Origin: Hydractinia symbiolongicarpus
Taxonomy: Eukaryota; Cnidaria; Hydrozoa; Anthoathecata; Hydractiniidae
Reading direction: 5' to 3'
Assembly: GCF_029227915.1 (NCBI RefSeq)
Contig: NC_079882.1
Span: forward strand, 26,727,001-26,791,000
Length of the DNA: 64,000 bases
Under the pieces are notes generated by a model. The model had not been told where the DNA came from. It saw only the letters and a program-made list of their open reading frames with translations, and did not search any database. This document shows positions 374-46,660 of this stretch, one piece after another (position 1 is the first letter of the stretch; each line of letters begins with the position of its first letter). Both the position numbers and the translations under genes were made by a program.

Positions 374-3300
374 CCATTCGTCTTCATCGACACCTTCAAA
401 GTTATCTTGTTCCAATTTATCATCGACATCCAACTTTCCCATCATGGCGTTTATTAACTGTCAGAAGAATATAATACAATATGCAATTCTTAATGGCGAG
501 AATGCGAAAAAGGCGCTGTAAAATTATTCACACCTGATCTTAATTTTAGCACCAAAAGTTGCTTAGCAGTTGCTCATGACAAGATTTTTTTTTGTCGAAT
601 CTGAAAGTTCATAGTTAAGTAACTTTTATTTAAAATTTTTTTGTAAAACGCCCATCATGGAAAATATGCCACCCAGCATTTTCCGTCTTTCTTTCTACCA
701 AAAAACACATAATTTTCTACCAAAAAACACATAATAAAACAAGTCCTTCTTGCACACAAAGCCCAATATTAGCACATAGCACATAGTGGCCCACGTTATT
801 TTATATATAGACTAACAAAAAATGATCTATCAAGTTTTAAAATATGTTACTTCGGATTTTTTTTCTTCGTCAGTCTTTTCTGACAAAATATCTTGACTGC
901 AATACTTCGATGCTTTGGGAGCTTCCTTCGGTGCTTCACTTACTGCAACAAAATAAAATAAAAAATAAAAAATAAAATCAGGAATATGTATGTGTGAAAA
1001 ATAAATAAGATGTACTGACATTTCTTCATATTTGTTGGTTGCAGAGAAATCCACTCTTGTGCTCGATCACAACCATCCAACCACTCTTCGCCAGACATAG
1101 TTGCTTTCCACGACACTCGTACGTCAGAATACAAATCGTCCTGGAAATATTCCATCTACACAAGAAAACAGTAAAAACTTGTTTCATCTTATCTTATAAT
1201 ACAAATAAAATCATCCACACCTCCAAATTTACATACCTTGACCCTTGGAACAGTTAAGGAAATCAATTCAATATGCGATTTAGTTAAACGAGCAGCTCTG
1301 GCAAATTCAATTTTTCGAACATCGACGATGTCTTTTCGCAGAAACGACACAGCCTGAACAAGAATAAAATAAAAATTGCAGCAAAGAAAAAAACAGACGT
1401 TTAAAGAATAAATATAGGAAGTACTCGTTACTTGATGTTGTTTGCCCATGTAAACATGCGACAAAGGGTGAAAATAGGGCTCCTTCTCGTGCACTTCAAA
1501 AGCGTATATAACACTATCACCCTAAAAATAATTTCAGCATTATTTAAAGATGGAACCAGCTTTGTGTTATCTTTAATGCCACGTGATAGAACATACCTTC
1601 CCAGTTGCAAATAAAGTACAACTAGCTTCATCGTAATGGAGACTAAGTACTGATGGAGAAGTATCTAAATTGTCAGTGTTAGTAAGTAACTTCAAATCTT
1701 CGTTATATACAAACAGACTTCGGCCAGATCTATGAAATAAAAATAATTTTATCAAGATCTTGTAACGTCTATTTTACAATGCTACTGAGAGTCAAGCAAA
1801 CAAATTCAAGTTACAATTTTTACACAACGCGTTTTTTTAAAGTTGAAGAATCGTTACCCAGAAACTGTTGACACAACAAGCCAATTATTTTTGGGTCCAC
1901 ACCATGTCACTCTAGCACCGCGCGTGACAACAGGACCAGTTCCTTCCTAATAAAAAAAAAATTACAAATATACACTTAAACAACGAATCAACTAAACAAT
2001 TGGTTGAATAAACAACCAATTAAACAAACAAAAAATTAGAAACAATTAGAAACAACGAATCAACAAACTGAAAGACATACAGACACACAAAACAGTTTAA
2101 ACAACAAGAATTTAACCACACCTTTATCGGTTCCACGTCATTTACAGGATCATAAATTCGAATCTGTTTATCTCTACAATAAGTAGCTAAATATTTTCCA
2201 TCAGGATGCCACGATAGACATAAAATCTAGAAATAAAACGATGGTATTGGCATGTTGTTACGGTGTACACATGTACACGAAAATAAGACATTTTTTAAAA
2301 GAGTACCTGATCATTATGTCCCTCCAGTGCACCAATCTCTGAAAAATCACTTAAATCCCACACCCTCACTGTAAAATCTAAAGCTGCAGACACAAGGATT
2401 TCGCTTGCAGTAGGATGATACTTCACAATTGTCACTCTTTGCTGATGTCCTGGAATTATACGAAAAAAACATCAAATATCTCCGAGTTATAATTACTTCT
2501 GTATTTATTTGATAAGGTGAAATGTCTCACCTTTTAAAATCGCCTTAGGCGTAGTGAGAATCTCAGTTAAACCATTTTCTGGTATTTCCCACAATCGAAT
2601 ATGATAATCTTCACAGCCTTAACAAAAATAATACAACTTTAAAAACGCATTTTTAAATGTAAGCCTTTTTTTCTAGTGAGTAAAAACTACAAAAAAGTCT
2701 TTACCGACAGCAATATTTCGGTTATTAAATGGATCCATGGCAACATCTAAAACTCCACAGCTGTTTTGTAACACTGGTAAATCACACTCAGGAAGTCTTC
2801 CAGGTTTTGTCAACTACATAAAAAATGAGGGTTTGAGCATTAATGCAAGAACAACCGATTACCCTGGGCTGTAACGCAAAATGTCTCTTTTGTTTAGTGT
2901 TTTTATTGTAATAATATAATTCACTGTTTTTGTTAATACACGAGGTAAAAATTCGAAACAATCTTGTTTAAAAACGGAAACATTCTATGTAGATTCGAAA
3001 ATCTCTATAGACTAAAGCCTTCTTAACAAAACATTGCGATGTTCAACACTTACGTACTTTTGATAATACTGGTTATATCATCATCGTTTTTTATAGACAA
3101 TGTAGCTAAATAGTTAACTAGCTTTGTTGAAGAAGCTTCTTGACAGAATAATGACACTATTTCTCGGTACTTTGACACAAAAACTTTACATTGTTGCACA
3201 AAATCTTTTTTTTGGCAATGTATTGTAGGAATTAGACATGTGCTTCTTGAAATTTGTTTTATTGTGCTTGTTTACATTTTAAGCTACCATTTTTTTTGAC

Positions 3301-6300
3301 AATGGACAATACCGCTACATATCAGCCTGTTTTCAAGAGCGCTAAGCCAATCAGAATGCCTAAAAACCTGTATTGCCCACTTGCAAACTCCAGACGATTA
3401 GCAATCTACAATACTAAAGATAAAGTGCATCCTATAGTAGCACAAAACGTTCTTACCTGGCACACAGCAATCTGTCCACCTGCACCAGACAAAGGTAACA
3501 ACACAAAATCCTCATACACTTGAAAGCCATCACTTTCTGAAGGTAGAGATTCTGATAAATTTTTAATGTTTTCAATGTTTTTAGATTTGTGTAAAACATC
3601 ACATTTTAAATGTTTAAATTTTGATTGATGAACACCCTGGAAGATTGCACTTTTCTTTAGTCCACCACCTTTAACAATAGGCTTCTTTTTTGCAACTGTA
3701 GATGGTTCATGTTGTGTTAGAGATTCTAAAAACAATGAACATTTAACCAAGTAGCATGTCAATCATGCAATGAATTATTTTTCGGTGTCAACACAAAATA
3801 GAGATCATCTCCGATCAGATTTTAATAATTCCCACCTTTTTTAGATTCCTTTTCAATAACGTTTTCTTTTTTTTCCTCCTCTTTATTTTCAGTAATATTT
3901 GTTTCGGATGTAGTTGATTGATGGACAGCTTCTGTGGTAACATCAAGTGACGATTTTTTGCCTGTCACTTTTAAACCACGAACAATTGGTTTTAAGCTGC
4001 CAATTTTTGGATCAAGGCTCAATTTAATAACCTATTGAAAACATAATTTTTATACAACACACATTTAAAACTGTAAACTTTAAAGCATTTGTAATTGTCA
4101 TTACAATACCTCCTTGTTTTCACCAGAAAACCATACAGCAGAATCCATTGATGCTTGGCCAGAATACACAGTATCCGGGAAAAGGTCAGCATGAAATTCC
4201 CGATAAGACTAAACGAGATGACAACTGTTAACTATAACTGATTAAATATTTTTTGGAAGTAAAGAAAAAAATTTCTAACATTTTAGTCAACTTACCTTTC
4301 TTGGTATGATGTAAGGTAGAGGTGTAATAGCATTCTTGGATAACTGAAAGAAGCGCTCCACTTCTCCCTCCATCACATTTAAAATTCTTTTTGGAGCCCT
4401 ACCCATTCCAAATGTTTGTTGACCTAAGGAGTGTGTTGATGCTGAAAAGACAAGGAAAGAAATAGAAATTACACTAGCGATATAGCAATGTACATAAGTT
4501 GGACACAGAAAATATTCTGTAAAAAACAAGGAGAATTTGTATGTTAACCCTTTATCAATACACATAGAAAACCAAAAACAATATTTTTTTTAATATATAA
4601 AACTTTAGTTATAAAAAAATCACAAAGGGACAATTTGGTGAATGTAAAATAAAAATTAAAAATTATTTTTCTCTAAGGCGTTTAGTTTCAAAGTTTTATC
4701 TAGTATGAAATACTTTTGTCGACAAATGTAATAAATGGTTGATGTATCCTTAACATCCATTAAAACTTATAATTAAATAGTGAACGAATTTAATGTTCAT
4801 TAAGTATTAATATGCAGAAGTAACATAAACAGGTACGTCTGCATAAACAGGTACTTCTGTTCTCACTGACAGGGTTCTCACTGCTTCTGTTCACACCATG
4901 AAATCATTTTAGAAGTTCTTTCTTGCACACAACTAAACGTATCATTTAGTTGAGGTTGCAGTTGTCATTCCACCATATTCTGAATACTACACACGTATAA
5001 CGCTTATGCTTCCAGAGCAAGACAAATAATTACTTCAGGAAATTTTGCCTCAAATATAACGAGTATGTTATTATGATAATACATATATAACAAACTCACA
5101 CAATGTCATATTTTTATTGGATTCGTTAAATTCAAACAATGAAGCATATCCATCACCCTAAAACAAAACAAAAATTATTATAAACAAACAATATCATGTT
5201 TTATAGAAGCAATACTTTACACGGTCAATCACCTTTCCAGCCATGATAATCATATTTGTGTCAACGTCATGGAAGGGCATTAAAGTTCTAAATAATGGAC
5301 AAAAATATACATGTAAAGCGTTCATGAACTTTAAATAAACAATATTAAGTCTGCATACCCAGATCCTGAACCTTCTTCTTCTTCAAATATTAATGAACCG
5401 GTGTTTCGTACATCCCATAAGCCAAATGTTTTTTTATGTTTCTGAATTTAAAAAAAACATTTTGAATAAAACGAGTAAAAAAAAACACATAAAAATGTGA
5501 CATGTGGCTTACAAAATATTATGCAGCCTAGTATTGACTTACTTTGTTAAATCCAGTTCCTAAAATAAAATCAGTGTCTCCCAACCATACCACACGTGAA
5601 TCTTTATTTCCAGGAAAGCCATCAAATGTCTAATCAACAAACAGAGGTTTAAAAGATAACATATTTACTAAAATAAGCACCATTGCTAGAAAGAAAAAAG
5701 AGCACCTTTCTCAAATTAGGGCTTCCTTTATTTAAAATATTTATTGAGTGCCTGTCTTGAAAAAGCACCTAATCTGCCAAATTGTGTGCTAATTTAATAA
5801 ATGTGGAAACTAAAATTATATCAACAAAACCACAAATATAATGCACTCACAGACACTATTTCCGCAGCTCTTGGGTCAATAATTCTGTTTTTGGTGTCCT
5901 AAAAATAAATATATTATGTATGAGCTTTAAAGCCCTTGTTAAACAGATTTATTTATGACGACAAAAAACAATGTAACAGTAAAGGCAATAAAACATTCTT
6001 CAATCTTCTTACTTTGCAACTTGTTGCCATAACTTTACCATTCAATCGCCAAGACATACTCTGAAAATTGGACTCGCTTCCGTTTTCAACACCTTAAGAT
6101 GATGTAACAATGAGAAGAATGTCAATATAAAACAAAGTCACTATGGTATTTATAAATTATATGAAAGTACAGGAGATAAAAAAAAATTACTTTATGATTT
6201 TAACTTAGCACAAACTACAAATAAGAAACTTCTGGCAAAAATCAGATTATTGTCATTTTAAATTTAATTTTGTGCTAAAAATGTCAGGAGGCGCACCTAA

Positions 6301-13041: not shown

Positions 13042-14211
13042 TTAATAAGAGGCAATAAAATACTTCTTTAGATCACTTTTCAGACCAAAGTAATCTATGG
13101 AAACAAATTTTTTAGTCATTGATGTCTGTATCTTATTCCAGGATTTAATGGTGTTAAATCTAATAGAATTTTTACCAAAACAAACGGTATTGACAGTAGG
13201 AAGATTGATCAAGCCAGCCTTTTCTGCACGAGTGCTCTGGGCATGGTTGAAGTCAACCGCAAAAGTATTCTGGATAGTAGCAGGCATTTTATCATGAAAG
13301 AGCTTATGCAAAAACAGAATGTTCTGACACTGGACAATATCATTGAATTTGAGGATTTCCAGGTTGCCATAGATGATACTAGATGATGCTCTTCGAGATT
13401 CAAAAGTCATTAGTCTGATAACAAAATTTTGTAAAACAGCAATACGATTAACATCAAGACTATTTGGTTGACCCCAAATATGACTACAATATTGCAGGTG
13501 GGAATGAAAAATGGCATAGTAGACTAGGATAAGGACATTTTGAGGCACAAAATGACGAAGTTTAGCTAAAGCTCCATTAGCCCTCTTGAGCTTGGCAACA
13601 GTATTATTGATCTGAGTCTTCCAGCTTAAATCAGAATCTAATAGAACACCAAGATATTTAATAGAATCACTAGGCATAAGCCTTTTACCATTGATGAGAA
13701 GCCTAAAATCATAATTAAGAGGTTTATGTGCATGTTTAAATATAATGTATTCTGTCTTGCTAGCATTAAGAGAAATCTTATTAGCATTCAGCCAATGGCA
13801 GAGAAGCTTGAGGTCTAAATTCATTTGTTTGGCCAGTTGTTTCAATGAGTCACTGAAATGCAGGAGGTTTGTATCATCAGCAAAGTGGTGTACCATAGAA
13901 TTGTTAATTGCACAATTCAAGTCGTTTATATAAATTAAAAATAAAAGTGGTCCTAAAACAGAGCCTTGAGGGACACCATGTCTGGTAAGATTATTTGCTG
14001 ATCTAGCTCCATTTAAAGACACAAATTGTTGACGACCTATTAAGTAGGACCTAAATAAAGAGAGAGCATTACCTCGAATTCCATAATGATGAAGCTTTGT
14101 AAGCAGAATTTCATGATCAACAGTATCAAAAGCCTTCTGGAGATCAATAAACACTCCACATGCATAATTTCCTTTATCAAGAGCATCCATAATTTTTTGA
14201 GAGATATTCAT
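13042..14211 (-). pseudogene. LINE reverse transcriptase core and thumb/C-terminus
   Basis: The RT palm carries VFIDLQKAFDTVDHEILL (first catalytic Asp), GVPQGSVLGPLLFLIYINDL and the catalytic box HHFADDTNLLHF, followed by KISLNASKTEYIIFK and LGVLLDSDLSW. A C-terminal helical region ends near 13042 with LKSDLKKYF. This is the CR1/Jockey-type arrangement. The segment is itself open for 389 codons but is separated from the upstream RT piece by a frameshift at 14211, so the copy cannot make an intact protein as read. Confidence 0.85.
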
Positions 14212-15140
14212 TAGTGACAGGTTGAGTAATTTTTTCTGAAACCAAATTGTTGCTTATACAGGACATTGTTAGCTTCAAGAAACCCATACACCCGTTTATA
14301 TATAAGTTTTTCAAATATCTTATCAATGTTTGAAAGTAAGGATATAGGTCGATAATTTGTAAGTTCCAATTTGGATCCTTTTTTATGAATAGGGATAACC
14401 CTGGCAGTTTTTAAATTAGAAGGAAAAATGCCTGAAGTAAAAGACAAATTTATAAGTTTAGAGAGTGGAACGGATAATTCAGTTTTAACAGTAGAAAAAA
14501 TTTGGGCAGGAATGCTAAATGGCCCAGAAGATTTACCAAGGTCCAAGGAAGAAATACAATGGAGAACTTCAATATCATCAGTTGGTGAAAGAAACATTGA
14601 ATTAGGAACAGAATCTTTTAAGAAGGAAGAGAAATGTTTTGATGTGAATGGGATGCCCATTCTTACATTGTCAGCAATTGATGAAAAATAATTATTAAAA
14701 GAGCTAGCAATTGTCACTGGATCAGTGACAAGTAAGTTATCAATGTTCATACAGGTTGGAGAAGCAGAAGCAGAAGAACGAACAGAAATTATATTTTTAA
14801 CACCTTTCCAAATGTTGCCAATATTTTTTTGGTTATCACTAAAATATTTATTGAAAAAATTACTCTTGCTCAATCTACACAGAGTTACAATTTTATTGCG
14901 GTACTTTTTGAAACGCTCTAACAAGAGAGACTTAAAATATGGATCTTTTTCTCTTAAAAAACGTTTATGAAGAAGGTCTCTTTTAGTAATAGAGGTAAGG
15001 ATACCATTAGTAATCCAAGGATTGGATTTTTTTCTACTTTTTTTATTACAAGTCGTTTTTAATGGAGCGTATTTATCCAAAAGACTGTTGAAACTGTTGT
15101 AAAAATTATCAAACGATACATTGGGATCATCTGTACTTGG
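14211..15140 (-). pseudogene. LINE linker and RT N-terminal segment
   Basis: The open frame continues after the nonsense codon at 15141 and encodes the region linking endonuclease to RT. It includes FGKSSGPFSI-type RT motif 1 (visible as LGKSSGPFSIPAQIF), ARVIPIHKKGSK and NYRPISLLSNIDKIFEKLI, and ends at FGFRKNYSTCH. Just after this His the frame is lost: two bases appear to be missing relative to the next block, creating TAA. Together with the following segment it would form the reverse transcriptase. Confidence 0.8.
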
Positions 15141-16241
15141 TTAAAGTATAGCATCCCAGTCCGTATATTGTAGTTCAGTGCGAAAGGCATCATGACTGAA
15201 TTTTTTCCAGTTACGAGCATAAATATCATTAGATACATGAGCCGGATTGACAGCAGACAAATCTCTTAACACTAAGAACTGGGGGAAATGATCAGATATT
15301 GAATTAATAATATTACCAGACAAAGTATCCCACTTGGCAGAGTTAAAATAAATATTATCTATAATTGTGCTGGTAGATTTAGTGACTCTTGTGGGCAAAA
15401 TTATATGAGGCATTAAATTAAACTGGGAGGTAATATTAATATAATCAGAAACTTCTTTAACCGATTCGGACATTAGAAGGTCAATATTAAAATCACCAAG
15501 GAGAAAGATTGGCTTATTTTCAGAAGACGCCTTCTCAAGAAGGGGCATTAAAAATTGGTTGTTAAACTCATCAACAGACATTGAGGGGTGTCTATAAATG
15601 CATCCTACAATCATGTTTTTATCTTTATCCTGTATAATTTCAATGAATTTAGATTCAAGTTCACTGCTTTTGAATGCGAGTGTATCAAGATCAAAACGTT
15701 CAATAAATTGCAAGTGATTAGAAACATACAACAGAGCACCACCTTTTTCACCTTCAGTAGGCGTGTGTGTGAAGGAGTAACCAGGTAGATCACAATTAAT
15801 AGGAGGGACATTAATCTGGAATTTAGTTTCAGTGATACCAATAATACTGAAGTCATGCCCAAGTTGTTGTAATAGAACCTTCAATTCATCAAGATGTTTT
15901 GACAGAGATGCAATATTCATATGGAAAAGGGAGAATTTATGAGAAGTAACTTGAAGGTCAGTGAATTCATTTGGATCATAATATTTGCAGTTGACACCAC
16001 CCATGATTTCAGGGATGTGATTGATTTTAAGAGTATTAAGCTTTGTAAGAAATGTTTTGATTTCAAGGGAAGAAAGTGACTTGTCGTAGACTAGAGGGGA
16101 AGCTTTTATGCCAAAGGGGAGAATTTCATTATTACATTTACAGCAAAACCATTTCTGGGTAGAATTTTGAAGAGATTCATAATCCTTGACGTTGAGACCA
16201 TTAGCTACATTTAATATGAATCCAGAAATCACAAATATCAC
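15141..16241 (-). pseudogene. LINE endonuclease segment (PHD end + APE domain)
   Basis: The APE-type endonuclease would nick target DNA for target-primed reverse transcription. Recognisable blocks in order: HMNIASLSKHLDEL, IIGITETKFQ, KGGALLYVSN, IVGCIYRHPS, LLGDFNIDLL, IIDNIYFNS and ISDHFPQFL, including the catalytic ETK, GDFN and SDH motifs. The first residues of the open frame are out of phase with the zinc finger just upstream, where WFCCKC is in frame but the preceding CDICDFWIH is not. The segment ends at an in-frame stop (about 15141). The frame continues unchanged after it into the next segment, so this is a point nonsense mutation, not a natural terminus. Confidence 0.82.
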
Positions 16242-16300
16242 ACTGAATTGCCTTTTGATTACAGTTTACAGACTCCCACATATTCCACATGGATAATTTA

Positions 16301-19053: not shown

Positions 19054-19061
19054 AATCGTCT

Positions 19062-19330
19062 ATGGAGTCATGTACTGGACAAAAGTCACGCTATAGAGTG
19101 TCGTGTTGCGTAGTAGAGTGTCGAGGTGCAATATAGATCCCAAGGTCGCGAGGCGTAGTATAGGTGGACGCGAGGCGAAATAGAGAGTCGCGAGGCGTAA
19201 TAGTGAGACGCGTATGTAATAATAGAGAGATGCGAGGCGTAATAGAAGGACGCGATGCGTAACAGAAGGACGCGTTGCGTGATGGAAAGACGCGCAAACA
19301 AGGGCGACGCGGCGTGTAGGAAGAGGGGAC
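19062..19330. repeat. Left inverted arm with 20-bp CpG-rich subrepeats
   Basis: The outer about 110 bp match the right arm. They are followed by degenerate copies of CGCGAGGCGTAATAGARRGA. Repeated, regularly spaced CGCGAGGCG boxes at a transposon end look like transposase-binding sites (inference). Chance ORFs on the minus strand here translate only the repeat. Confidence 0.88.
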
Positions 19331-20249
19331 GCGTACTTTCGCGCCATTTGCCTTGGTTACCCGTGAATAAATTTCGAATTTTTTCAATTGACTGGCAAAT
19401 TAATCAAGACAAAACACGAAAGAAAAAGTAAGTTTTTGTAGCAGCTGGGCTGACCGTTCTCTCTGATTTTTTCTCTCCTGTTTTTTTAATTTCTGCTGTA
19501 TTATAGTTATATTCTGATAAATTGTGAGAAGTTGCTAATTCATAAGTATGTGTAGTAGTGAAGGGAAGCAATGTAGGGCAACGACGACATTTGTCAACAC
19601 AGGTATAGCTGGCACCCCCCCCCCCCTCCTCATATATATTTTCTCATTAAAATTTGTAATGGGCTAGCTATACTATTGCTATAAATAATGGATTATATTA
19701 TTTGCCCTAGCAACTTTTACTTCCTTTTTTCCTTCCCTTGTATACACCACCAATCAACCCCCCTCCCCCTGCAACGAGGAGGGTGCCGATAAGCCGAAAA
19801 ATGTTATTACACTGCTTGCATGCTATTCTGTTATAAGCAATGTGCTGTTTTTGTATTAATATTGTGTTTTGTATCACCATGTGATTACAATGTTTTGATA
19901 GGTAAACAGGGCAGCTTATAAAACAGAACGTAGGACTACGACTGGTAGTTAAATGGAACTGTGCGGTGCATATGCATGTGTACAACAACACTGTCAACAG
20001 GTGTATTGTAATGATGGCAAATTTCTCAAGTTTTGGTTTTCTTCAAGTGACACTGCACCCATTTTCAAGAATTTTAAATAATGCAGCAAATATGTACAAT
20101 GTTCTTATTCGATTTTCCTTTAAGGATATTCTTAAGACATTTTTAAATTTTTGTCTTACTATCGTGAATATTTATCGGCATGGTTGTAATTTTCAAAACT
20201 TTCAAGCTAAATTGTATGTGATGTTTTAGGAATTAAAAATTGATTCAGC

Positions 20250-22393
20250 ATGCAGAAAGTGAAAGACGCTATAGACAGACTGAATAATGCATTGGATGGT
20301 CTGTCATCATCAACAACAAGTACTCAAAATAATCCAAATCAGAACATCTTCCAGAGTCCAAACTCACATCCAAGTCCAAACTTACATCCAAGTCCACAAC
20401 ATCAGAGAATTCTACAAGATTTCAAGTAGGTTGATATTTTTAAGAGTTGTGAATTTCTGCTCCCAGCATGATCATTGCCTCCTTTGTATCTTTTCGATAA
20501 GTTTCAATAATCATCTCTCCAGGAGTACTGCTCACAGGCATTATGCTGATTGTGACTATTGAATTTTTTCGTGCCTTTGTACCTTTTTATAACATTTTTC
20601 ATTTTTTTGATTTTGTTCAACTTTAATTTTTTTCTGTATACACTGAGTAGAAAGATTATTATGTTTGAGACAGATTTTTATTTTAATTCTTGTTCTGTTT
20701 CAGTAAGCAATTTCCAGCGTTGAATGCTGGTGGTAGCCGATATCGCCCACAAGCAAAGAAACCACGTCTCTCTAATAACTTCATTAAGGACACATGGACC
20801 CATAAATTCTGTGCACTGAGCTACAAAGATACATCAGTTTCACCTAATACACGTGAATTAATGGAGCTAAACCAAGTTGGTCTCGGAATTGAAAAAGTTG
20901 TTTTTCCTTCCAAAACTGGAACACATGCTATGCTTCTGGAAGAGTTAACAAAAGCTTATCCAAAATTATCATCACAGAGTGGTGGCATTGAACTTCTGAG
21001 GGCTGAGAGTGGTGGAATAAACCGACCATTGGTGTTGATACCACCAAGAAAAGATGGTTATTCTATCAGCTATTTAAAAAATTTAGTACCCGGTCACGCT
21101 GTAATATACATCAGACCAGTGCAGAGCGACTTACCAATGGAGGAACCAACTATGGATTCAGGTATTGAAGTTAACTGTGTACGATGTAATCAGAAATATC
21201 CGTTAAATGATTTAAGATTCCATCAAGCTTATTGTCAACTTGATGATGACATTTTTCCAGAGATGATAGACGATGAAGCTGGGCCATCGAATGAAAAAGA
21301 AGTAGGAAGTACTTCTCCCCATATCGATACTTTGTCGGCAATGTTTCCTCGAATCTCTAAAGCCACAATTCAGGACATTTTACGGAATACCAAATCTATC
21401 GATGTGGCAGCCAATATTTTGAGTGAGAAAAGTGCAAGTGAAAATATGTCTGACATGCTGCAAATTAAATGTGTAGATAAGGACATGTCTTTAAAAGAAA
21501 TTCTCAATCAAATTACATCTCTTGCTTCAGAAAATGATACAATCACTTTGGAAATTGAACGTGACAATCTTTGGATGGAATCCTTGAGATTTTACAAAAG
21601 GAACCTTGTGAATTCTCAAGTTATGACCAAAAAATTGATCATTGAGTTTAAAGGAGAGGACGGCCTTGATGGTGGGGCAATGAAAACCGAATATTTCAAC
21701 CTTTTGTTAGAAGAAGTTAAAAATCGTCTATTTGAAGGTGAAAATAACAGTTTGTTGCCTGTGAAAGACATCACAAAAGCTGTGCTTTTCAAAGTTGCTG
21801 GTATGATTATCGTACATTCATTGATTGCTGGTGTTGACACCGGCTTCCCAGTATTAGCAAAACCATACTTTTTACACATGTGTGGTAGAGATACCGACAG
21901 TTTGATTGAAAGTTTGAATAAAAGCCACATACCAGCAAATGCAACAACTGAAAATTTGATTGAATTGATTGAATCACTTGATCAATGTAAAACAAAGGAC
22001 GATATAGACAAACTGCTTTACAAGGACAATCAGAAGCAAGATGTGTTTTGGTCACTTATTAATTCTGCGCATTGGCCTGCCGACAAGAATATTAACAAAG
22101 AAAATGTCCCATTACTGGTTCAACAACTCATTTTGAATGATGTGATATTGTCACGCCGAAACTCTTCAGACATGTTATTCGAAGGTTTGAGCTCGTGCAA
22201 TTTCTTGAATACGATTCGGTGTCATTGGAAAGTTATGGATCAAATATTTTGTGCTGGTTATCGCATGATTGAGAGTAAAGAATTTATCAAATGTTTTAGT
22301 TTTGACGAACCAACTTCCTTCGTGGAGACACAGGCAAAGAAATTTTTTCTGTCGTTTATTGAAAAAAGTGACATTCACGTCTGGCATTTTTAG
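20250..22393 (+). CDS. Transposon-borne UBZ/CUE/HECT-like protein
   Basis: Two coding exons join in frame. Exon 1 (20250-20425) starts MQKVKDAIDRLNNAL and is rich in Ser/Pro/Gln; exon 2 (20704-22393) follows a TTTCTGTTTCAG-like acceptor. The product is about 621 aa. Seen in order: a C2HC finger CVRCNQKYP..H..YC (about residues 217-236, UBZ-like); a CUE-like motif with DTLSAMFPRISKATIQDIL (about 265-300); then a HECT N-lobe from about 345 with LIIEFKGEDGLDGGAMKTEYF. HECT ligases pass ubiquitin through a Cys in the C-lobe. Here the chain ends FFLSFIEKSDIHVWHF, before the C-lobe, and no catalytic-Cys motif is visible, so ligase activity is doubtful. An acceptor just upstream (about 20230) and a donor near 19429 suggest a 5' non-coding exon in the left arm. 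Similar to metazoan G2E3-like HECT families. Confidence 0.82.
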
Positions 22394-22476
22394 GATTTAT
22401 TGTATGATTAAACAAACAAGTGGTTTTGTTGACATTTCGTGTACTTATGCAGTACTTTTATTTTTCAGAATATAAC

Positions 22477-23919
22477 ATGAATATACAACAATTGAGTCCA
22501 GTTGATTTTATTAAGAATTCTGTTGTTGATACATTGAAACTAATCCAGTCGTTATTGTCATCCTTTGTTGACGCGAATACAGCAGATTTGGATTATCCTG
22601 TCTATAGACTTGATGAACTTTACAGCTTCTGCTCTAGAGCAGCTTTAGAGTATCCAGATGTTATAACCGAAAATGTACTGAGTAGTATTCATCAAGCATC
22701 AGTGATAATTCAATCAGTGAACAAAACTAGTAACGCGGAAACTGTACGGCACAAGATAGGCAGGCCTTCTTTCGATATACCTGAGGAAACTCTAAAAACT
22801 TTAGTGAGGTTGAATTTTTCGCAGACGGCAATAGCTGAAATGTTCGGAGTAAGTGCAAAAACTATTCAAAGAAGATTTAAAGAGTTTGATATTGAACCTA
22901 AATCGCACACTATGATTGGTGACGAGGAACTTGATGAACATGTCAAAAAAATTATTTCAGATTTTCCTAACTGTGGCATACGTAGAATGAAAGGTTTTTT
23001 ACTGTCTCATGGTTATCACATTCCTTGGAAAGTTGTTCGTGATAGTATGTGGCGGGTTGATCCATCAGGGCTATTGATGCGCTCGTTGCAACGTAATGTA
23101 GTTCGAAGAAGAAAATATAGTGTTGCAGCGCCAAGGTCATTGTGGCATATAGACGGCAATCACAAATTGATAAGATGGTCGATAGTCATTCATGGCGGCA
23201 TAGATGGGTATTCTAGGCGTCTAATGTTTCTGTCGTGCGGATCAAGTAACAAGGCTACTGTAGTACTCGATTTATTTCTGACCGCAGTACAAAATTTTGG
23301 CTTGCCGTCGCGTGTAAGAGGAGATCATGGGGTGGAAAATGTAGACGTTGCTTGGTTTATGATATCAAGACGAGGAAGTAATCGTGGTAGCTTTATCGCT
23401 GGGAAAAGTTGCCATAACCAAAGGATAGAGAGGTTCTGGAGAGATCTATTCCACGGCTGCACATACATATACCACAACATATTCACTTACTTGGAAGAGA
23501 TAGGAGCCTTGGATATATCGAATGAGTTGCATTTGTTTTGCCTTCATTATGTTTTTATTCCAAGAATAAATGCACATTTTCAAAGATTTATCCTGGGCTA
23601 TGATCACCATCCTATCCGAACAGAGAGAAACCTTTCTCCTCTTCAATTATGGGAAAGAGGTTTGTTGTTGCAAAGGAGACCGTCAGAAGATGATATTGTC
23701 GATGACTGCGATTCATATGGTATAGATTGGAGTGTACCGAGTCATTATATCGAAACCCGTGACGATGCTATTGTGGTTCCCGAGATAAATCATCCATTTC
23801 AAAGTAATGACTTATACCTGGAATTTTGTAGATCTAACGATCCAATGGCAAATTGCGATAACTTCGGTATCGAAGTGTTTCTTCGAACTGTTCAGGTCGT
23901 AGAAAGTACATTGTTATGA
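22477..23919 (+). CDS. rve-type DDE integrase/transposase
   Basis: Single open frame of about 480 aa starting [11 protein letters not shown]. An upstream in-frame extension to 22420 exists, but the TTTTATTTTTCAG acceptor ending near 22468 argues for a spliced 5' leader and this start. Residues about 100-150 form a helix-turn-helix typical of transposases ([31 protein letters not shown]). The catalytic core has D226 ([13 protein letters not shown]), D283 (RGDHGVENV) and E318 ([11 protein letters not shown]), with 34 residues between the second Asp and Glu. A conserved C-terminal stretch follows ([15 protein letters not shown]). It would bind the inverted arms, excise and insert the element. 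It lies 83 bp downstream of the HECT-like gene on the same strand. No frame lesions were seen, so the copy may be recently active. The family is the eukaryotic retrovirus-integrase-like group; the exact subfamily was not assigned. Confidence 0.88.
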
Positions 23920-24045
23920 ACACCACTATTAGTTCACTCACAGAACTTTTGATTGAATTGCTTAACTTGACATTAGTTACATTAGATACATTACAAAGAA
24001 GAAATTCAAACATTTTGTTCACTATATACGTACTAGATATTATGC

Positions 24046-24252
24046 TTAGGTAAAATAAAGCTCCTTCAGTTCTTCTAACCACGCGAAAAAATAGCCACAG
24101 CAGTAGTCATTTAATAAGTTCTTCCCGTGCCTAATTATAGAGCGCGCTCTTTTTTGTTTCCCCGTCCCAACGTCGAAAAGTTGTATTATGCCCTGATCGA
24201 GGTTGTTATTCTGCTTATCATAACTCCCCTCTAATAGGCATATAATATACAC
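24046..24252 (-). CDS. Small hypothetical ORF inside the transposon 3' region
   Basis: A 68-codon minus-strand frame (begins MYIICLLEGSYDKQ, includes DVGTGKQKRARSIIRHGKNLL) lies between the integrase and the right arm. Composition is protein-like, but no family is recognised, and it could be chance or a remnant exon. Confidence 0.2.
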   Translation of the reverse strand: MYIICLLEGSYDKQNNNLDQGIIQLFDVGTGKQKRARSIIRHGKNLLNDYCCGYFFAWLEELKELYFT

Positions 24253-24424
24253 GAGAGGTTATGATGAACTAGTAGCCCTTGTACACCAAGTATGGAATCT
24301 TTTTTTTTCATTTTTTCCTTTTAAAGTATTCATGACAAGAAAAAAGTGAAGATGTATGTAAGCGTAGTTCTTTCTCTGACACGGATCCTCCCATCACACA
24401 TCTTATTACGCTCCGACTTTACAC

Positions 24425-24734
24425 GTATTTCTATTACGCCTCGCGTCCTTCTATTACGCCTCGCGTCTCTCTATTACGCCTCGCGTCTCTCTATTACGCC
24501 TCGCGTCCTTCTATTACGCCTCGCGTCTCTCTATTACGCCTTGCGTCTCTCTATTACGCCTCGCGTCCTTCTATTACGCCTCGCGTCTCTCTATTATTAC
24601 ATACGCGTCTCACTATTACGCCTCGCGTCCACCTATACTACGCCTCGCGACCTTGGGATCTATATTGAACCTCGACACTCTACTACGCAACACGACACTC
24701 TATAGCGTGACTTTTGTCCAGTACATGACTCCAT
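24425..24734. repeat. Right inverted arm with 20-bp CpG-rich subrepeats
   Basis: About nine near-perfect units of CTATTACGCCTCGCGTCYYT (20 bp) occupy 24430-24590. They are followed by the unique tip sequence that mirrors the left end and finishes GTCCAGTACATGACTCCAT at 24734. More units are intact here than in the left arm, so the arms have diverged in repeat number. Confidence 0.9.
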
Positions 24735-25418
24735 AATCGTCTATCATTACTGTCACGGCTGTCCTCGATTCGATTGCCCAAAATTGAGATGCGGTTCCGA
24801 GTGCGGAAAAAATGGAAATGGCTGAATAATCGAGACAGCGTTGCTATAAACGCACGCTTTTAATATAATTCTTTTTGAAAGGGACGGCCAGATCAAAACC
24901 ACCTGAGTGGTACTTCTTTTTGGGGGGGAATATCCCTGTTTAATTCCTCGAACTTTAAATGTGCCTGTCTTTTTTAAATTTTTGTAAATATTTAGTTACG
25001 TGTTATTCTCGTTGTTTATATTGTTTTGTTGTGTGTCTTTTTTTTGTGTGTGAAGTTTGTATTTTTTTCCCTTCAAAGTAGTCTAGTAAACTAAACTCAT
25101 TATTTTTCCCTTTTTGATATTTTTGATAGGGAAGAGAAAAAAGAGAGTTTACAATAACCTACCGACAGTTAACATTTAAACTGACAACTGATCTAAAATA
25201 TTAGCCACTTAAATTTCACAGTATGGCGTGGTGGATTAAAACAAAGATTAATTAGCCTATAAAGTAGCTAATCTACATAAGGGAGACTTAAAAGACCAAA
25301 AATTCTAGCTTCCTCTTTAACGTTTAAAAAGAGCAATACAGTTACCGCATAATATTTTTTTATAAGTTTAAACATTTAAAAATATCCCACCAAACTCATA
25401 TTTGTTGAAAAACATCAG

Positions 25419-33219: not shown

Positions 33220-35756
33220 AATGACTAGAAACACTGCTTTATGGGAAATCAAAAGACAATGCAAATTAATACCCATGTGTAAAATAAAAAATAAAATTCC
33301 TATATGGGGTGCCAATATAGCAAAAAGATTTAATGGCGGGATTATTTGCGTAATGGAAATTTTAAAACTTGCTTTATCCAAAAATATATTTCAACAAAAT
33401 TGCTATAAACCTCTAATTTCTGCGATTACTAATTTTTTTAGGTATTCGCGATATGAAGTACGTGCGAAGATAGGTTAAAAATAAAGAAGCATAAAACAAT
33501 AGGTATTTCTACTGTTTTTAAATTTAAATTAACAACGGGATTTTTCTTTTCTCTTTTATCAAATGCATATTTAACCCTTTAACCCCTTTTTACCCTTTTA
33601 ACGACATTAATAATTGGCCTCTGAATGGCAATATGTTTCAAACTAACTTACCTACTTGGGGTTCGCCTTATTTCTTCTAATGAACGCCCTGTGCTCGTTA
33701 GATGTCTAGAATTTGAGATATGGCGCGAGTCTTGTCAGAATGACACAGGATATACTTTTTAATTGGTGGAATTATCTTGAAAGCCATAGTGGTTAACAGT
33801 TAGTCACCACACAACCAAAACTCGGCCTGTTTATCTCAATTGATACTAGTCATAAAACGCGTCATCAGATAATATTTTCGTGAATGAGTGCCACGTGCGT
33901 TAAAAATAAGTACAAATGTTAATGAGGATTGTAGACAAACGCTAGGATGGAATGGGATAAAAATATGGATGTGATCTTATAGCTAAAAGTTGGCAAAAAA
34001 CGATGATTTTGGTTTGCTAGCTAACATTTTGTATCGACCCAAACTCGTCACTCAGCGAGAATTTTCGAGATTGTCGGAAAAAAAGCCTGAGGACGAAGTT
34101 GATATCGACCAAAACCTTAATTTTTAACTAACTAATTCTTTGTTGATTTTTGAATTGAATTTAAACGTTGAATTTTTTATTCTAATATTTTTTAGTTGAA
34201 TTTAATTTATTAAAGAAGATTTTGAAATAATTTCTTTGGTATACACTTTATGTTAAACTCAACCAGTATTTCCGAAATATAGTTGGAAAAAGATGACTCA
34301 ATTTATGTGAATAAATTACGTATTATCATTTTTCATGAAAACATATTAAAAGCAACGACAAATCGCGAAAGTAGCGAAAACAATTAATTTTGTAAAAATA
34401 CTATTAAAAGAAAGTGTCATGCTAGTATACAGTGCTCTACCGGTTCGGGAAATGAAAATGCGTAAAGCTAAATCTTCAATTACAGAATGAAAGAATATGT
34501 AAAAAATATAAAAGTTAAAATTAGGAATGATTTTATTTCTCATGGTTTAGCTGATTAATGTTCCGGAAGTTCATAAATGTATGACAACTGTGGAAAACCA
34601 AACAAGAAAATAACGAAGCGGTGCAAAGCATCGCACAGAAGATATCTGTCAAATAACTTGCACGTTTTCCTAACACATAAGTTTCCAATTAAATGCCTTT
34701 TTTCACCCTTATCCTTAAGATTTCTATCATATTAAAAAGACAATAATCCCTTGGGGCGAGGGTGACCTTTTAATGCGATATGACTCGACGTACGCGACAG
34801 TAAGTGCTTTTAATAATAAATCACGAAATACGCGAGACTTTCTGACTGAATTTTCTCAACCTTTCTGTTTTCTCTTTTTGTCTACCCGTTATTTTAAACG
34901 CAGCACCATTGAACTGAAAAGCTCTGTGAAGGAGGTTGCTAGATTTTTTAAAAGGGTAAAATAACCATTCGCTATGAAGGTATTGAGAGAGAAATAATAT
35001 GTGTGTGTAGAATACCTTAAAATAAAACAATATACTTTTGGTACTATATTATAAAAGTTTTAAATCATCTTCGCCATCTGTAATAACATCAATGATGCCT
35101 ATGTACCAAAAGTATTTTGATTAATTTTAAACAAATTTGTTACTTTTTACTTTTTGCACATCCCAACCTCGTCCCCAGGGTCTTATGGCCCCTGAGCCGT
35201 TATTACGGAGTGGAACAAGGCAAATTGCCCTGGGAACGAGGTTGTGCATATCCAACAACTCTATCGATGGGTATAAATAAAAGCAGATTTTAAGTACAAG
35301 TTAAGCTCTTTTTAATATACCAAAAAAAAACGAATTACATTGTGAGCTGGTAAAGCAACACAAGTCTTTCTACGCGATTAATTGTTAATTTATGACGAGA
35401 AATATACCGTGAAGCAGGACGGGAGATATATCCAATACAGGAACGGGAAAAATAATAATGGTAATGAGTGAGATAAACAGGGAAGTAAAAGTTGAGTCGA
35501 CACTTTAAAAGGTGAAAATATGAATGTGGGAAGTTACAATTTGTTTGAAAGTCACCTTGTCAATGATAAAACTGATTAATTACATTACAATAAACGTCTT
35601 CGGAAACGTTAATTGCTGACGATACTTTATATCCTTTAAAACGACCTTATTAAATATTAATTCTCAAATTGGAGCTTATCGTTCTAAGCGAAAGTTGCAC
35701 TATATCAAGTTTACCTTTCAGTAACCGATATATCGAAGCGTCTAATTTACTAGATC
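33220..35756. other. Intergenic region upstream of first 7TM gene
   Basis: AT-rich. Short ORFs here look like chance. It contains one short foldback element (35164-35244) and no RNA gene. Confidence 0.55.
35164..35244. repeat. 81-bp foldback element, CAACCTCGTCCCCAGGG termini
   Basis: The left end CAACCTCGTCCCCAGGG (35164-35180) is mirrored by CCCTGGGAACGAGGTTG (35228-35244) with one difference. The interior is unrelated. Confidence 0.88.
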
Positions 35757-37763
35757 ATGATTGAAGCACGACAGATTATGACCGCATTCGTTATTACTTT
35801 GGCTGGCCTTGCCACGATGCATGCTAACGTCACATCCCCACCTTTCCCATGGCAAAAGTTCTTCTATTTTCCAGATTATGTTAAAAATAGTGAATATTTC
35901 GACATATCGAGGTATTTATGCGAGAAGCCTAGTTTGTATCGATCGTGTTCTTGCGAGGAGTCGTGTATGTTGAACACGAATTGTTGTATTGACAAATTTT
36001 GGAGAGATGTACAACCAATGAGCTTAGATGAATATGTGACCCACTTTCTTACCATACATAGACCGATAATTGCGAAAAGGGAGAGATTAAAATGTTCTAC
36101 CATTGTTGATACTGAACTTCTTAAAAATGAAGATTCTCATTATAAATCAAGGGACGTACTTATGATTACCTCATGTCAGGGCAATGCATCCGCGGAGGAG
36201 ATATCAGGGTGTCGTAATGATAAGCTTAAAACATCTCTTGATTATCTGATGCCTGTTGTTGGATCTGATGGGCTAAATTATAAAAATTCATACTGCGCTA
36301 AATGTAATTCCATCGAAATATACACATGCTTTGACATACAGTTAACTTGCGAATGGATGTCAGATATAAAATCTATGCGAAACAAAACAGATTGTTTTGT
36401 TGAGAAACTTTCACAAGATTGCTCCAGCCCATGTGTGGAAATAAGTCCTTATTGTACGGACAGGAACAACGAAAATTACGAGTTATGCCAAGCATATGAA
36501 GGCAAAATAGAAGGTTACAAGAACTCCCACTGTTATATATGTAACAACAAGTCTCCTTTGCTATCCAATCTTCCGTTAATAGCTACGTCAACGCTACTAA
36601 GTCTAACCACCAACAAGAGAGGTTTAGTGAAGAAAGATGTTGCAATATCGTACAATGAGTATCATAGTTACAACATGTCCATACTGCAATGCACCGAACG
36701 CAAAACGTTGGATATTACAAAGAAAGAATGTGTAGATTTCATTTGTGCAGAAGGCTTTGTCAAAAAAGAAAAATTATGTGTTAGAAACAAAGTCAAGATG
36801 TTTGAAAACAAAGAAGACGCGATTATGCAATTTAAACTTGTTGAGACCGTTGAAGGATATATCGCGTTGATTGGTACGAGTATAAGTGTGCTTTGTTACT
36901 TGTGGTTGTTAACCAAGTTTCTTACAAAGGGAATTAGAAAGGCGAAAGTACCCAAACAATTAATGGTAGCGTTGTGCATATCATTATTCATATCTGACAG
37001 CATTTTCTTACTCTCGAATATAGCAAGAAGTTATAAAAATGCTTGTACTTGTGTTGCAATTCTTCTACACTTCTTTCTTCTCACATCACACGTTCTAACC
37101 GCCGCGACCGCGTTTGAATTCGCTTCAACGTTCCGATCAAGACCAGTAGCAAGGCCGTCAAAATCTTTGAAACGATTTGTTTTATACTGCGCAGTGGCTG
37201 TTGTTTGCTCAATAATAGTTGTTTTAATAACATTCATACTAAACGAAATTGATGCAAGTTACATTCAATATGGCGGAAAAGCTGCATGTTGGATAGGAAA
37301 TCTTTACGGACGAGTGTTTTCCTATATCGCACCAGTGGTTTTTGTTTACATATTTTCTGCTGTTGCACTGACATATGCTATACGTAACATCCACGAAGTA
37401 AACAAGTTAAATCATAGCGCGATGCCAAAACAGGATAAAAACAGATATAGTTCAGGGAGAATTGCTTTCAAGTTGATTGTATATCTTGGCATAATCGAAA
37501 TATTCGGAATAATTCAAATCAGTAAAGACAACTTATCGAACAACGAATTAATATTCAACTCTGTGTTTCAGATGTTATTTACGATAATTCGAAGTTTCAG
37601 AGGAGTGTTTATTTTGATGTTGATATTATCAGCTAAAAAATCAAGCTGGTTAAAATCGTTAAGTACAAAACGAATCAGGATAACATTGAACAGAAACAAG
37701 CCAAACTTAGATACAAGTAAATGTACAGTTGAAAGTAATCAAAGCGTGACAACGAAACTATAA
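35757..37763 (+). CDS. Intronless 7TM receptor with SMB-like Cys-rich ectodomain
   Basis: 668 aa from the first ATG, which precedes a signal peptide (IMTAFVITLAGLATMHA, about residues 7-24). A somatomedin-B-like Cys cluster follows at about 55-80 (CSCEESCMLNTNCCIDKFW), then further paired cysteines through about 340 (ISPYCTDRNNENYELC, CVDFICAEGFVKKEKLC). Seven hydrophobic helices run from about 366 to 625: YIALIGTSISVLCYLWLL, LMVALCISLFISDSIFLL, ACTCVAILLHFFLL, FVLYCAVAVVCSIIVVLI, YIAPVVFVYIFSAVALTY, FKLIVYLGIIEIFGI and MLFTIIRSFRGVFILML. The layout is that of family B/Methuselah-like receptors. No GPS autoproteolysis motif is visible before TM1. Single exon with a short basic tail. The ligand is unknown. 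A paralogue lies 2.8 kb away on the opposite strand. Confidence 0.85.
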   Translation: MIEARQIMTAFVITLAGLATMHANVTSPPFPWQKFFYFPDYVKNSEYFDISRYLCEKPSLYRSCSCEESCMLNTNCCIDKFWRDVQPMSLDEYVTHFLTIHRPIIAKRERLKCSTIVDTELLKNEDSHYKSRDVLMITSCQGNASAEEISGCRNDKLKTSLDYLMPVVGSDGLNYKNSYCAKCNSIEIYTCFDIQLTCEWMSDIKSMRNKTDCFVEKLSQDCSSPCVEISPYCTDRNNENYELCQAYEGKIEGYKNSHCYICNNKSPLLSNLPLIATSTLLSLTTNKRGLVKKDVAISYNEYHSYNMSILQCTERKTLDITKKECVDFICAEGFVKKEKLCVRNKVKMFENKEDAIMQFKLVETVEGYIALIGTSISVLCYLWLLTKFLTKGIRKAKVPKQLMVALCISLFISDSIFLLSNIARSYKNACTCVAILLHFFLLTSHVLTAATAFEFASTFRSRPVARPSKSLKRFVLYCAVAVVCSIIVVLITFILNEIDASYIQYGGKAACWIGNLYGRVFSYIAPVVFVYIFSAVALTYAIRNIHEVNKLNHSAMPKQDKNRYSSGRIAFKLIVYLGIIEIFGIIQISKDNLSNNELIFNSVFQMLFTIIRSFRGVFILMLILSAKKSSWLKSLSTKRIRITLNRNKPNLDTSKCTVESNQSVTTKL

Positions 37764-43051: not shown

Positions 43052-43059
43052 TTTTTCTC

Positions 43060-43687
43060 TTTGTTTAATTTGTTGAGCTTGAAGTATTTATGTAATGCTT
43101 TTCAACTTACTGTATCACTTTTCAATCCATTACACAATTTTTAATTATAAATAATGCGAACGAGGTTATTAAACTAATTGAGAGGTCAACATTATGTTCG
43201 ACATATCGGTTTGTTCTTGTCACGAAACATACTTTGTTATCATTAAAAAGTTGGGAATATTTAAGCAAAAAATAAGCAGGTTTTCGGGACTCATAATTTT
43301 GAAATAAAAAACACACAATGTATAAGCATATAAAAGAACTAAAAATAACGAAAAGGGTAACTTAACGCACGCAGTATAAAGTATATTTCAATTACCTTAA
43401 GAAAGAAATTTTCGCGACAATTAATTTAAAGGTGAAAACTTTCGCGAGTAGAAAAATGGCAAAATTAAGGGAAATAAGTTTAACAAATAGCCAATTTTAA
43501 AATTTCTCGTTCATTGATTTTTCGAGAGAATCAACTTTCGCGATAGACATAGGTGGTAATTGTTTCTTTAAGGTGGTTTCGAAGAAGAGTATACAGATAC
43601 CATAAAATGTCAGCAAAAAAAACCCATATCATTTTAAATCGATTTAAAGAGTTCGTTAATAATTGTTACACGAAACATTAAACAATA
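43060..43687. other. Non-coding flank with scattered TTTCGCGA motifs
   Basis: No gene is present. Several TTCGCGA/TCGCGAG words occur at 43,400-43,550, and similar words appear on the far side of the next transposon (46,740-46,900). Confidence 0.45.
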
Positions 43688-44046
43688 GACCTTTTCATAA
43701 ATGATTGCGTAACTTTGCTTCGTTGCACGGAAACGAGGCAAGCGGTGCTTAAAATTCTTTACTAATTGCTTCCAATATGATTCTTTGTTTACGCTAACAA
43801 CAGATTCAAAATGCTGCGGAGATACATTATTATGAGGGCGATATTTACATAAAAACGAGTTAACTCCTTAATAAAAGGCTTTATCTCTATAAAGTTACGC
43901 ATCTTTTGACATTAATAAGCGCTGGCATTCTGAGTTTGAAGACAAGATCTGTGGAAGTGTTGGTTTTGTGACAAGCTTTATTTCAGAAATATTATATCTA
44001 AAATTTGTAAAAAACAGTTATTTTAATAGCTAAATCTCAGCTCAAT

Positions 44047-44961
44047 ATGGATTTTAAAAAACACGAGTTGGAGATACCAGATTTTAAAGTTTACTGTAAC
44101 ATTAAGGAGGGTGGAAACAAGGGCGACCGGGTTTTGTTTTCAGATTTTACTGACCACTTTTTTAAACAAAATGACAATGTTATCGATAATTATGCCAATG
44201 AAATTCATTTAGTTGAGCAAAAAAAGCTAATGTTACTACAAAATTTAAAAGAGCAGGCAGCTGATGCAATCAGCATCGAAAAAAATACACGAGACCAAGC
44301 TAACAATCCAAATTGGTTCAAGTATAGAGAAAACAGATTTACTGCCTCACTGTGCAACAAACTTGGAAACAGTGGACCCAAAACAGAAAGAGGCTTAAAA
44401 ACTTTAGCACGAAATATAGTGCATGGTTGTGTACCACAACAGTTTTTAAAAGTTAAATTTGAGTATGGACGATATCATGAACCCATAGCCATTGCACATT
44501 ATGAAAGATACATGAAGATTGCAGGTTTCCAAGTTGTTGTGGAAAATAATGGTTTAACAATAGATCAAAATAATTATGTGCTTGGAGCTACACCAGATGG
44601 AAGAGTTAACTGCAATGGCTTTTATGGCATCCTTGAGGTAAAATGCAGTCACTTGTACAGAGACATAGATCCAAAGTTAGTGTGTTCTGTGGCGAAAAAC
44701 CCTTGCATTCTCTATGACAGCAATACAGAAAATATCAAAATAAATAAAGATCACACATATTACAATCAGATACAAATGCAATTGGCTATCACATGTCAAA
44801 CATGGTGTGATTTTATTTTTTATACCTCAAAAGGTCTTGTAATCGACAGAGTGCCATTTGACATGAAATACTGGCAAGAACTACAAAAAAACATTTTACG
44901 GTTTTACTTTACATATATGCTACCACAAATCATAGAGAAAGATCAGGACAAATTGATGTAA
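44047..44961 (+). CDS. YqaJ-like PD-(D/E)XK nuclease of the transposon
   Basis: 304 aa, first ATG 86 bp after GCTTTATTTCAG-like sequence. The YqaJ exonuclease fold is indicated by WFKYRENRFTASL near residue 95, FEYGRYHEPIAIAHYE (about 138-153), GATPDGRVNC (about 179-188) and the GILEVKCSHLY box (about 193-203), where E and K of the E-x-K pair are catalytic. YIYTQMQLA-type helix residues follow (visible as HTYYNQIQMQLAITC), then CDFIFYTSKGLVIDRV. Length and motif order fit YqaJ domains found in eukaryotic transposons, where such a nuclease may process excision or repair ends (role inferred). It converges on the transposase gene. No lesions seen. Confidence 0.85.
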   Translation: MDFKKHELEIPDFKVYCNIKEGGNKGDRVLFSDFTDHFFKQNDNVIDNYANEIHLVEQKKLMLLQNLKEQAADAISIEKNTRDQANNPNWFKYRENRFTASLCNKLGNSGPKTERGLKTLARNIVHGCVPQQFLKVKFEYGRYHEPIAIAHYERYMKIAGFQVVVENNGLTIDQNNYVLGATPDGRVNCNGFYGILEVKCSHLYRDIDPKLVCSVAKNPCILYDSNTENIKINKDHTYYNQIQMQLAITCQTWCDFIFYTSKGLVIDRVPFDMKYWQELQKNILRFYFTYMLPQIIEKDQDKLM

Positions 44962-45053
44962 AATAAGACCTGTATATATTTGTAATGTATATATATCACT
45001 CTTTTTGTAAATATTTTTGATTTAAAACATTGCTTCAGTCTAAAGTTGTTTGT

Positions 45054-46577: not shown

Positions 46578-46660
46578 TTTGTTTACAAAAAAGTTTAGCA
46601 CCGCTTGTCTCGTTTTCAATACGAGGCATACTATTGCGCAATAATTTATGAAAAGGTCTA

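Follow-up and report, generated by a model that had tools for sequence, protein, structure and literature searches.

The locus studied here raises the question of what a gene of the ubiquitin system does inside a cut-and-paste transposon and whether its pairing with a transposase is genuine. The window—the whole stretch of DNA analysed, 64,000 nucleotides of contig NC_079882.1 of the hydrozoan Hydractinia symbiolongicarpus—contains an element that a first-pass annotation had described as an intact transposon encoding both a DDE integrase and a UBZ/CUE/HECT-like protein. The idea that ubiquitin might be connected with transposition goes back to the discovery of OTU/Ulp1 proteases, which remove such marks, in Ginger1 elements (PMC2836005). 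A transposon with its own putative ubiquitin-adding enzyme beside diverged transposases, in which the catalytic Cys has been kept, makes this question directly testable, and intact near-identical copies occur together with natural deletion mutants in one genome of Hydractinia, a laboratory animal. We consider it probable (about 0.8) that this is a real cut-and-paste transposon, recently active and of the IS3EU/GingerRoot kind, with a genuine DDE and HECT pairing, a figure that applies to the identity of the element and to the pairing and is separate from what the ligase might target.

Boundaries of the element and its superfamily

Comparison with sister copies places the transposon at 19061..24735 on the + strand (5675 bp), with tips TATGGAGTC..GACTCCATA that begin and end as TATGG..CCATA. 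It is flanked by a 6-bp target-site duplication (TSD), ATCGTC, at 19055..19060 on the left and 24736..24741 on the right, the boundary being set by 16 other two-ended copies. A perfect 8-bp duplication had been reported around the interval 19062..24734, and the 8-mer AATCGTCT is indeed present on both sides of it, but in sister copies the true ends lie one base further out on each side, with a T at the start and an A at the finish. Since these ends fix the limits at 19061-24735, the duplication in the window is 6 bp and not 8; in the 8-bp repeat it is lengthened, on each outer side, by a base that matches by chance. Copies of the family were located by their tip sequence, which is found in 17 of 18 (L014 is without a right end), and flanking duplications confirm them: all 17 two-ended copies, the window copy included, have perfect duplications, of 6 bp in 14 and of 7 bp in three (L013, L017 and L020). 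Because L021 and L022 have flanks in common, this corresponds to 16 separate insertions, 13 with 6 bp and three with 7 bp.

The matching ends announced by the first-pass annotation, and two open frames on the + strand, were found. The left terminal inverted arm (19062..19294, + strand, ~233 bp) is 86% identical to the right arm (24522..24734, - strand), element positions 1-233 pairing with 5461-5673. Repeats of ~20 bp lie inside the left arm at 19142-19294, and the right side contains a subterminal array (24430..24649) in which the 20-bp unit TCTATTACGCCTCGCGTCTC is repeated 10.8 times. KDZ/Zisupton elements, which had been named as possible relatives together with IS3EU and Ginger, make 8-bp TSDs, and so do Merlin elements according to the available text of PMC10045372. 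Membership in any of these 8-bp groups was rejected because 17/17 two-ended copies have duplications of 6-7 bp. Ginger1 was likewise rejected, there being neither an HHCC motif nor an OTU/Ulp1 C-terminal domain. IS3EU, which that same text describes as marked by TA..TA termini and usually 6-bp TSDs (PMC10045372), is the superfamily that fits, on the strength of TA..TA termini, mostly 6-bp duplications and a transposase of the rve-type DDE kind that has no HHCC. The superfamily is a known one, here with an accessory gene that is new to it within the reach of our checks.

The two genes and the deleted state of the window copy

The transposase gene (22447..23919, + strand) specifies 490 aa, with the start codon uncertain between 22447 and 22477, and combines a weak HTH with an rva_4/rve DDE core (Pfam rva_4, 3e-78, 262.5 bits). 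Its catalytic codons at 23152 (D), 23323 (D) and 23428 (E), within 23152..23430 on the + strand, are spaced by 56 and 34 residues (D-56-D-34-E). No HHCC or CxxC is present upstream of the first D in the window transposase, and Pfam scans of the window and L010 proteins gave no OTU/Ulp1 match. An NCBI protein (P0010) is the same as the window transposase at 489/490 residues. With this frame, the window copy retains the capacity to specify a complete transposase.

The accessory gene lies upstream of it on the same strand and probably starts with a further exon (20250..20425, + strand, beginning MQKVKDAIDRLNN), placed from the sequence only by a splice-site trial in which, among the donor/acceptor pairs tried, a single one kept the frame open to the end. 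The corresponding GT..AG intron would span 20426-20703 (+ strand). Exon 2 (20704..22393, + strand) is cut off short of the HECT domain's end, and the spliced product in the window copy has 621 aa. From its N terminus, exon 2 encodes a predicted ubiquitin-like β-grasp domain (20786..21136, + strand), a C2HC zinc finger of the form CxxC..HxxxC (21176..21235, + strand), a CUE domain (21314..21427, + strand; PF02845, 8.7e-6, 25.7 bits against a cut-off of 21.1) and a remnant of the HECT domain (21539..22373, + strand). The finger, whose four ligands are invariant in 9/9 alignment rows, is possibly UBZ-like, with zf_C2HC_14 and zf_UBZ scores that stay under the Pfam cut-offs in relatives. The accessory frame of the window (568 aa) has no Pfam HECT match up to an E value of 1 and is without the catalytic Cys, while that of the full-length sister copy L010 (641 aa) matches HECT at 5.6e-14. 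A structure model of the full-length HECT protein has a pTM of 0.50. The Pfam scan gave no SAM match in the window family.

What separates the two copies is a deletion, so that the window copy is internally deleted and the description of it as intact does not hold. Alignment to full-length copies shows that 854 bp (element positions 3314-4167 of L010) have been replaced by a 4-bp filler, TTCA, at 22374..22377. The lost segment covers the end of the HECT domain (the C-lobe) with the catalytic Cys of the sister copies, which in the motif KSSACLKIIYLP aligns with the Cys of the SMURF2 HECT domain. Lacking it, the ligase of the window copy should be inactive.

Searching the genome with the whole element gave at least 145 matches, long near-identical copies among them. 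Short elements that have nothing but arm sequence in common with it are also found among these matches. The 18 copies considered throughout are the window copy and L009-L025, that is, the long matches of this search rather than every piece of the family. The full-length element is ~6.5 kb (6525 bp in L010), and six more full-length copies (L009, L011, L012, L013, L015 and L016) match L010 at 99.6 to >99.9%. A 641-aa HECT frame with the catalytic Cys is present in 9/18 copies (L009-L016 and L020); L017 has kept the Cys in a HECT frame shortened to 538 aa. In 12/18 the transposase frame is 503 aa long and has D, D and E; L015 has one of 496 aa with an altered start. Both full frames occur together in seven of the 18 copies (L009-L013, L016 and L020), among them L020, in which 616 bp are missing upstream of the genes, and this upholds the proposal of one mobile unit carrying a DDE integrase and a ubiquitin-system gene. 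Among these 18 copies, a form of the element consistently devoid of the HECT gene was not found, the two-ended copies without most of HECT being internal deletions of the same element.

The nine deleted copies compared with L010—a set from which the twin L022 of L021 and the cut-off L014 were set aside—each have one main internal deletion, of 305 to 3524 bp, L021 having extra repeat units as well. The junctions show 1-4 bp of overlap in six copies and 4-15 bp of filler in three. In P and Ac/Ds elements, such scars are left by interrupted gap repair after excision. These nine copies look like products of failed gap repair, and their scars support, without proving, cut-and-paste movement.

Recurrence of the gene pair in divergent families

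In addition to the window family, a genome search with the intact HECT protein turned up at least 25 places with a divergent HECT-like sequence; outside the eight loci treated below, some that have long open frames probably belong to host HECT genes. In seven of the eight divergent loci examined (L051/L059, L052, L054, L055, L056, L057 and L060), at 27-31% aa identity to the window-family HECT, an IS3EU integrase adjoins HECT. The eighth, L058, has a HECT-like stretch with no integrase within ~1.5 kb, and its HECT pieces are >4 kb apart. We judged five of the seven positive loci to be one family (B), which makes three families, B, C and D. These findings also suggest that some of the predicted HECT genes of cnidarian genomes are transposon genes.

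In two of these diverged families, TA..TA ends flanked by 6-bp duplications enclose both genes, a second line of evidence for a single mobile unit. The ends of family B, defined from one copy, lie at 2207-7976 in L059, with 50-bp arms at 98%, TATGG..CCATA tips and the TSD GATAAA. Those of family D lie at 624-6703 in L060, with long arms, the same TATGG..CCATA tips and the TSD GTAGAC. Three of five further D copies are two-ended in the stretches fetched (TSDs TCAACG, CTGAGA and CAACAG), so that D is defined by four copies with both ends, all with a 6-bp TSD; in the other two the right end falls outside the stretch fetched. Gene order, which was expected to be one and the same, differs between families: HECT precedes the transposase on one strand in the window family, the two genes face each other in L051, L052, L054, L055, L056 and L057, and the transposase precedes HECT on one strand in L060. 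The catalytic Cys of HECT is kept in B (TMSCFNILYLP) and in D (TSNTCINQLQLP). The second catalytic Asp of the transposase is kept in the B relatives L052, L054, L055 and L056, and in L057 and L060; in L059 it is replaced by Asn, and this copy should therefore be dead.

The N-terminal region and the finger of the accessory protein are common to divergent families. In family D, a SAM-like stretch opens both proteins, at 22.5 and 18.0 bits, under the Pfam cut-off of 23. The two stretches resemble each other, SAM matches being confined to this one family, and they are our only hint, at the level of sequence similarity, that ligase and transposase may make contact. A maximum-likelihood tree of 30 transposases, built with database relatives and without Repbase IS3EU entries, places the window family, P0012 and family B in one group that has cnidarian relatives among others (support 97/95), and separates C and D from the remaining 28 (94/88, not starred), a position of which we are unsure because C is partial and D is long-branched. 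The HECT-bearing families thus do not look like one tight group, so that the pairing is either old or arose more than once; that the accessory protein has its N-terminal region and its finger in common between families favours a single origin of the accessory gene. Outside Hydractinia, related transposases occur in other cnidarians, fishes, sponges and acorn worms. A HECT protein (P0002, 42%) and a transposase (P0012, 51%) are each recorded on an ENA contig of 10,225 bases; this equal length, which is all that links them, suggests that the two are on one contig and that the pair exists outside Hydractinia.

Possible roles of the ligase and known systems

Our best reading is of an IS3EU lineage that has long had an accessory E3 ligase, which would be active and act with its transposase. 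The full-length element (~6.5 kb) encodes an rve-type DDE transposase with an HTH-like N terminus and, as its second product, a putative HECT-type E3 ubiquitin ligase in which a ubiquitin-like β-grasp domain is combined with a C2HC finger and with CUE. As the termini, duplications and DDE core suggest, the transposase would bind the long arms with their 20-bp repeats, excise the element and insert it with a 6-bp stagger. Donor gaps would be repaired from a sister copy, and the deletion scars point to aborted repair as the likely source of internally deleted copies such as that of the window. The ligase may then work with the transposase, either in the transposition complex or where excision leaves a break—a step to which we give somewhat less than even odds—and put ubiquitin onto the transposase, chromatin or repair factors; its finger and CUE would keep it bound where ubiquitin is attached. 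In its fullest form, which we put forward tentatively and which may well be wrong, the proposal is that animal IS3EU elements have long had, and have repeatedly kept, a HECT E3 ligase as their second component. It would contact the transposase through matching N-terminal domains, and transposition, or the repair that follows excision, would depend on it; gene order would have been freely reshuffled while the partnership lasted. Counting against the best reading are the differences in gene order between families, L058, the Asn in L059 (a position where its B relatives have Asp), the SAM scores, which are sub-threshold and confined to family D, and the pTM of 0.50 of the full-length HECT model.

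Transposons capture genes, and the HECT gene might be a captured host gene travelling as a passenger with no role in transposition. In favour of this, the window copy has lost its catalytic end and several others have lost more, which means that selection does not maintain the gene in individual copies. We nevertheless regard this as improbable, because IS3EU integrases are accompanied by a similar N-terminal region, finger and HECT in families whose proteins are no more than 27-31% alike, because the Cys is kept in B and D and the gene orders differ, when a passenger should decay between families, and because both frames are open in 7/18 copies. Another alternative, that the two genes are neighbours by chance or that the element is to be classed with the superfamilies making 8-bp duplications (KDZ/Zisupton or Merlin), draws on the 8-bp match that the window copy alone shows; it is very improbable and, as far as the tests go, refuted, since 17 two-ended copies fix the boundary and the 6-7 bp duplication, the transposase is of the rva_4/rve type and other families, too, have the pair enclosed by matching ends.

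Two further explanations accept a working ligase and differ in its target. It could be aimed at the host, ubiquitylating and removing silencing factors such as piRNA or chromatin proteins. The precedent is the TET/JBP gene of fungal IS3EU elements, which the available text of PMC12730594 reads as an aid to silencing escape and which is thought to lift methylation silencing. A separately encoded ligase could also act in trans, but the SAM-like N termini seen in family D suggest a contact with the transposase instead, and a host substrate is putative; we see this role as possible though rather unlikely. The suggestion in the first-pass annotation that the element manipulates host protein turnover, repair or silencing is likewise conjectural. 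Less likely again is a ligase that limits its own transposase, as a form of copy-number control in which truncated copies such as that of the window would be dominant-negative. The window copy is without the Cys but does retain its N-terminal domain, the finger, CUE and most of the N-lobe of HECT, and similar SAM-like stretches occur on both family D proteins; against this, the truncation resembles an ordinary abortive-repair scar rather than a selected form and is that of one copy in 18.

The best reading, a long-standing ligase acting with an IS3EU transposase, invites comparison with known systems. Host HECT E3 ligases such as SMURF2, NEDD4 and HUWE1 share the HECT fold and active-site Cys with the intact copies, whereas the transposon-encoded protein has an N-terminal β-grasp domain, C2HC finger and CUE, and in the window copy is without the end of the C-lobe. 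Among the literature matches listed, which do not extend to Repbase, none names a HECT gene in an IS3EU-type element. The IS3EU/GingerRoot elements of PMC10045372 resemble the window family in their TA..TA termini, 6-bp TSDs and rve-type DDE without HHCC, and the available text of that paper mentions no ubiquitin-system gene. Fungal IS3EU families, as described in the portion of PMC12730594 at hand, carry TET/JBP and alpha-kinase genes between ends of the form TAYGG..CCRTA; they are like the window family in superfamily, in these tips (here TATGG..CCATA), in their 6-bp TSDs and in having accessory genes in variable orientation (PMC12730594). That portion makes no mention of HECT or ubiquitin, and the fungal accessories are a DNA demethylation enzyme and a kinase, unlike the E3 ligase found here in an animal (PMC12730594). 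Ginger1 offers a parallel in chemistry: according to the available text, it contains OTU or Ulp1 domains, and its authors proposed a role of the ubiquitin pathway in transposition; like the window family, Ginger1 elements are of the integrase-type cut-and-paste kind and tied to ubiquitin/SUMO chemistry, and many come from the hydrozoan Hydra (PMC2836005). It differs in that its enzymes are proteases removing ubiquitin or SUMO that form part of the transposase itself, and in its HHCC motif and 4-bp TSDs (PMC2836005), in contrast to the window family, which has a separate gene for a putative ubiquitin-adding ligase.

Probable derivatives and possible short relatives of the window family

Four pieces of the window family (L044 to L047) lie close together on contig C10 of the Hydractinia genome (G000:C10:7.939-7.954 Mb), the first three spaced at about 3.7 kb and the fourth lying in the opposite orientation. 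In L044, L045 and L047, the pieces examined, the transposase follows closely 3' of the N-terminal part of the HECT gene; the cluster is thus probably made up of locally arrayed copies of a deletion derivative of the family. Searching the genome with the element also revealed short stretches that share its arm sequence (e.g., G000:C3:16337698-16338555), which may perhaps be non-autonomous relatives mobilised by the window-family transposase.

Other genes and putative mobile elements in the window

A second two-gene DNA transposon is possibly present at 44011-46709, where two frames face each other: a YqaJ exonuclease on the + strand (PF09588, 1.1e-10 in Pfam) and a THAP/DDE_Tnp_4 transposase on the - strand (PF13359, 2.4e-42). 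Outside this pair, a 12-bp inverted repeat occurs at 43406 and 47054, and no matching duplication was found in its flanks. Two receptor-like genes that resemble each other lie on opposite strands, at 35754-37763 (+) and 40529-43087 (-); one has a 7tm_2 match in Pfam (9.4e-15), and the other, without a Pfam match, was judged similar by eye.

At 13042-16265 (-), three successive frames interrupted by stops look like LINE-type retrotransposon sequence coding for an endonuclease and a reverse transcriptase; the middle frame, the only one scanned, scores slightly under the Pfam cut-off for RVT_1. Frames at 56792-59176 (+) resemble pieces of a Gypsy-type retroelement, as judged by eye only, and the single piece scanned gave no Pfam match.

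Related transposons in and outside Hydractinia

In L060, a copy of the diverged family D from the same genome, each of the transposon's two proteins, the transposase (1056-2579) and the HECT-side protein (3102-4421), carries an N-terminal SAM-like stretch scoring below the Pfam cut-off. Outside Hydractinia, IS3EU-type transposases were found at three loci (L026 to L028) on contigs recorded as belonging to a bacterial symbiont of a sponge, contigs that are probably sponge DNA within the symbiont bin.
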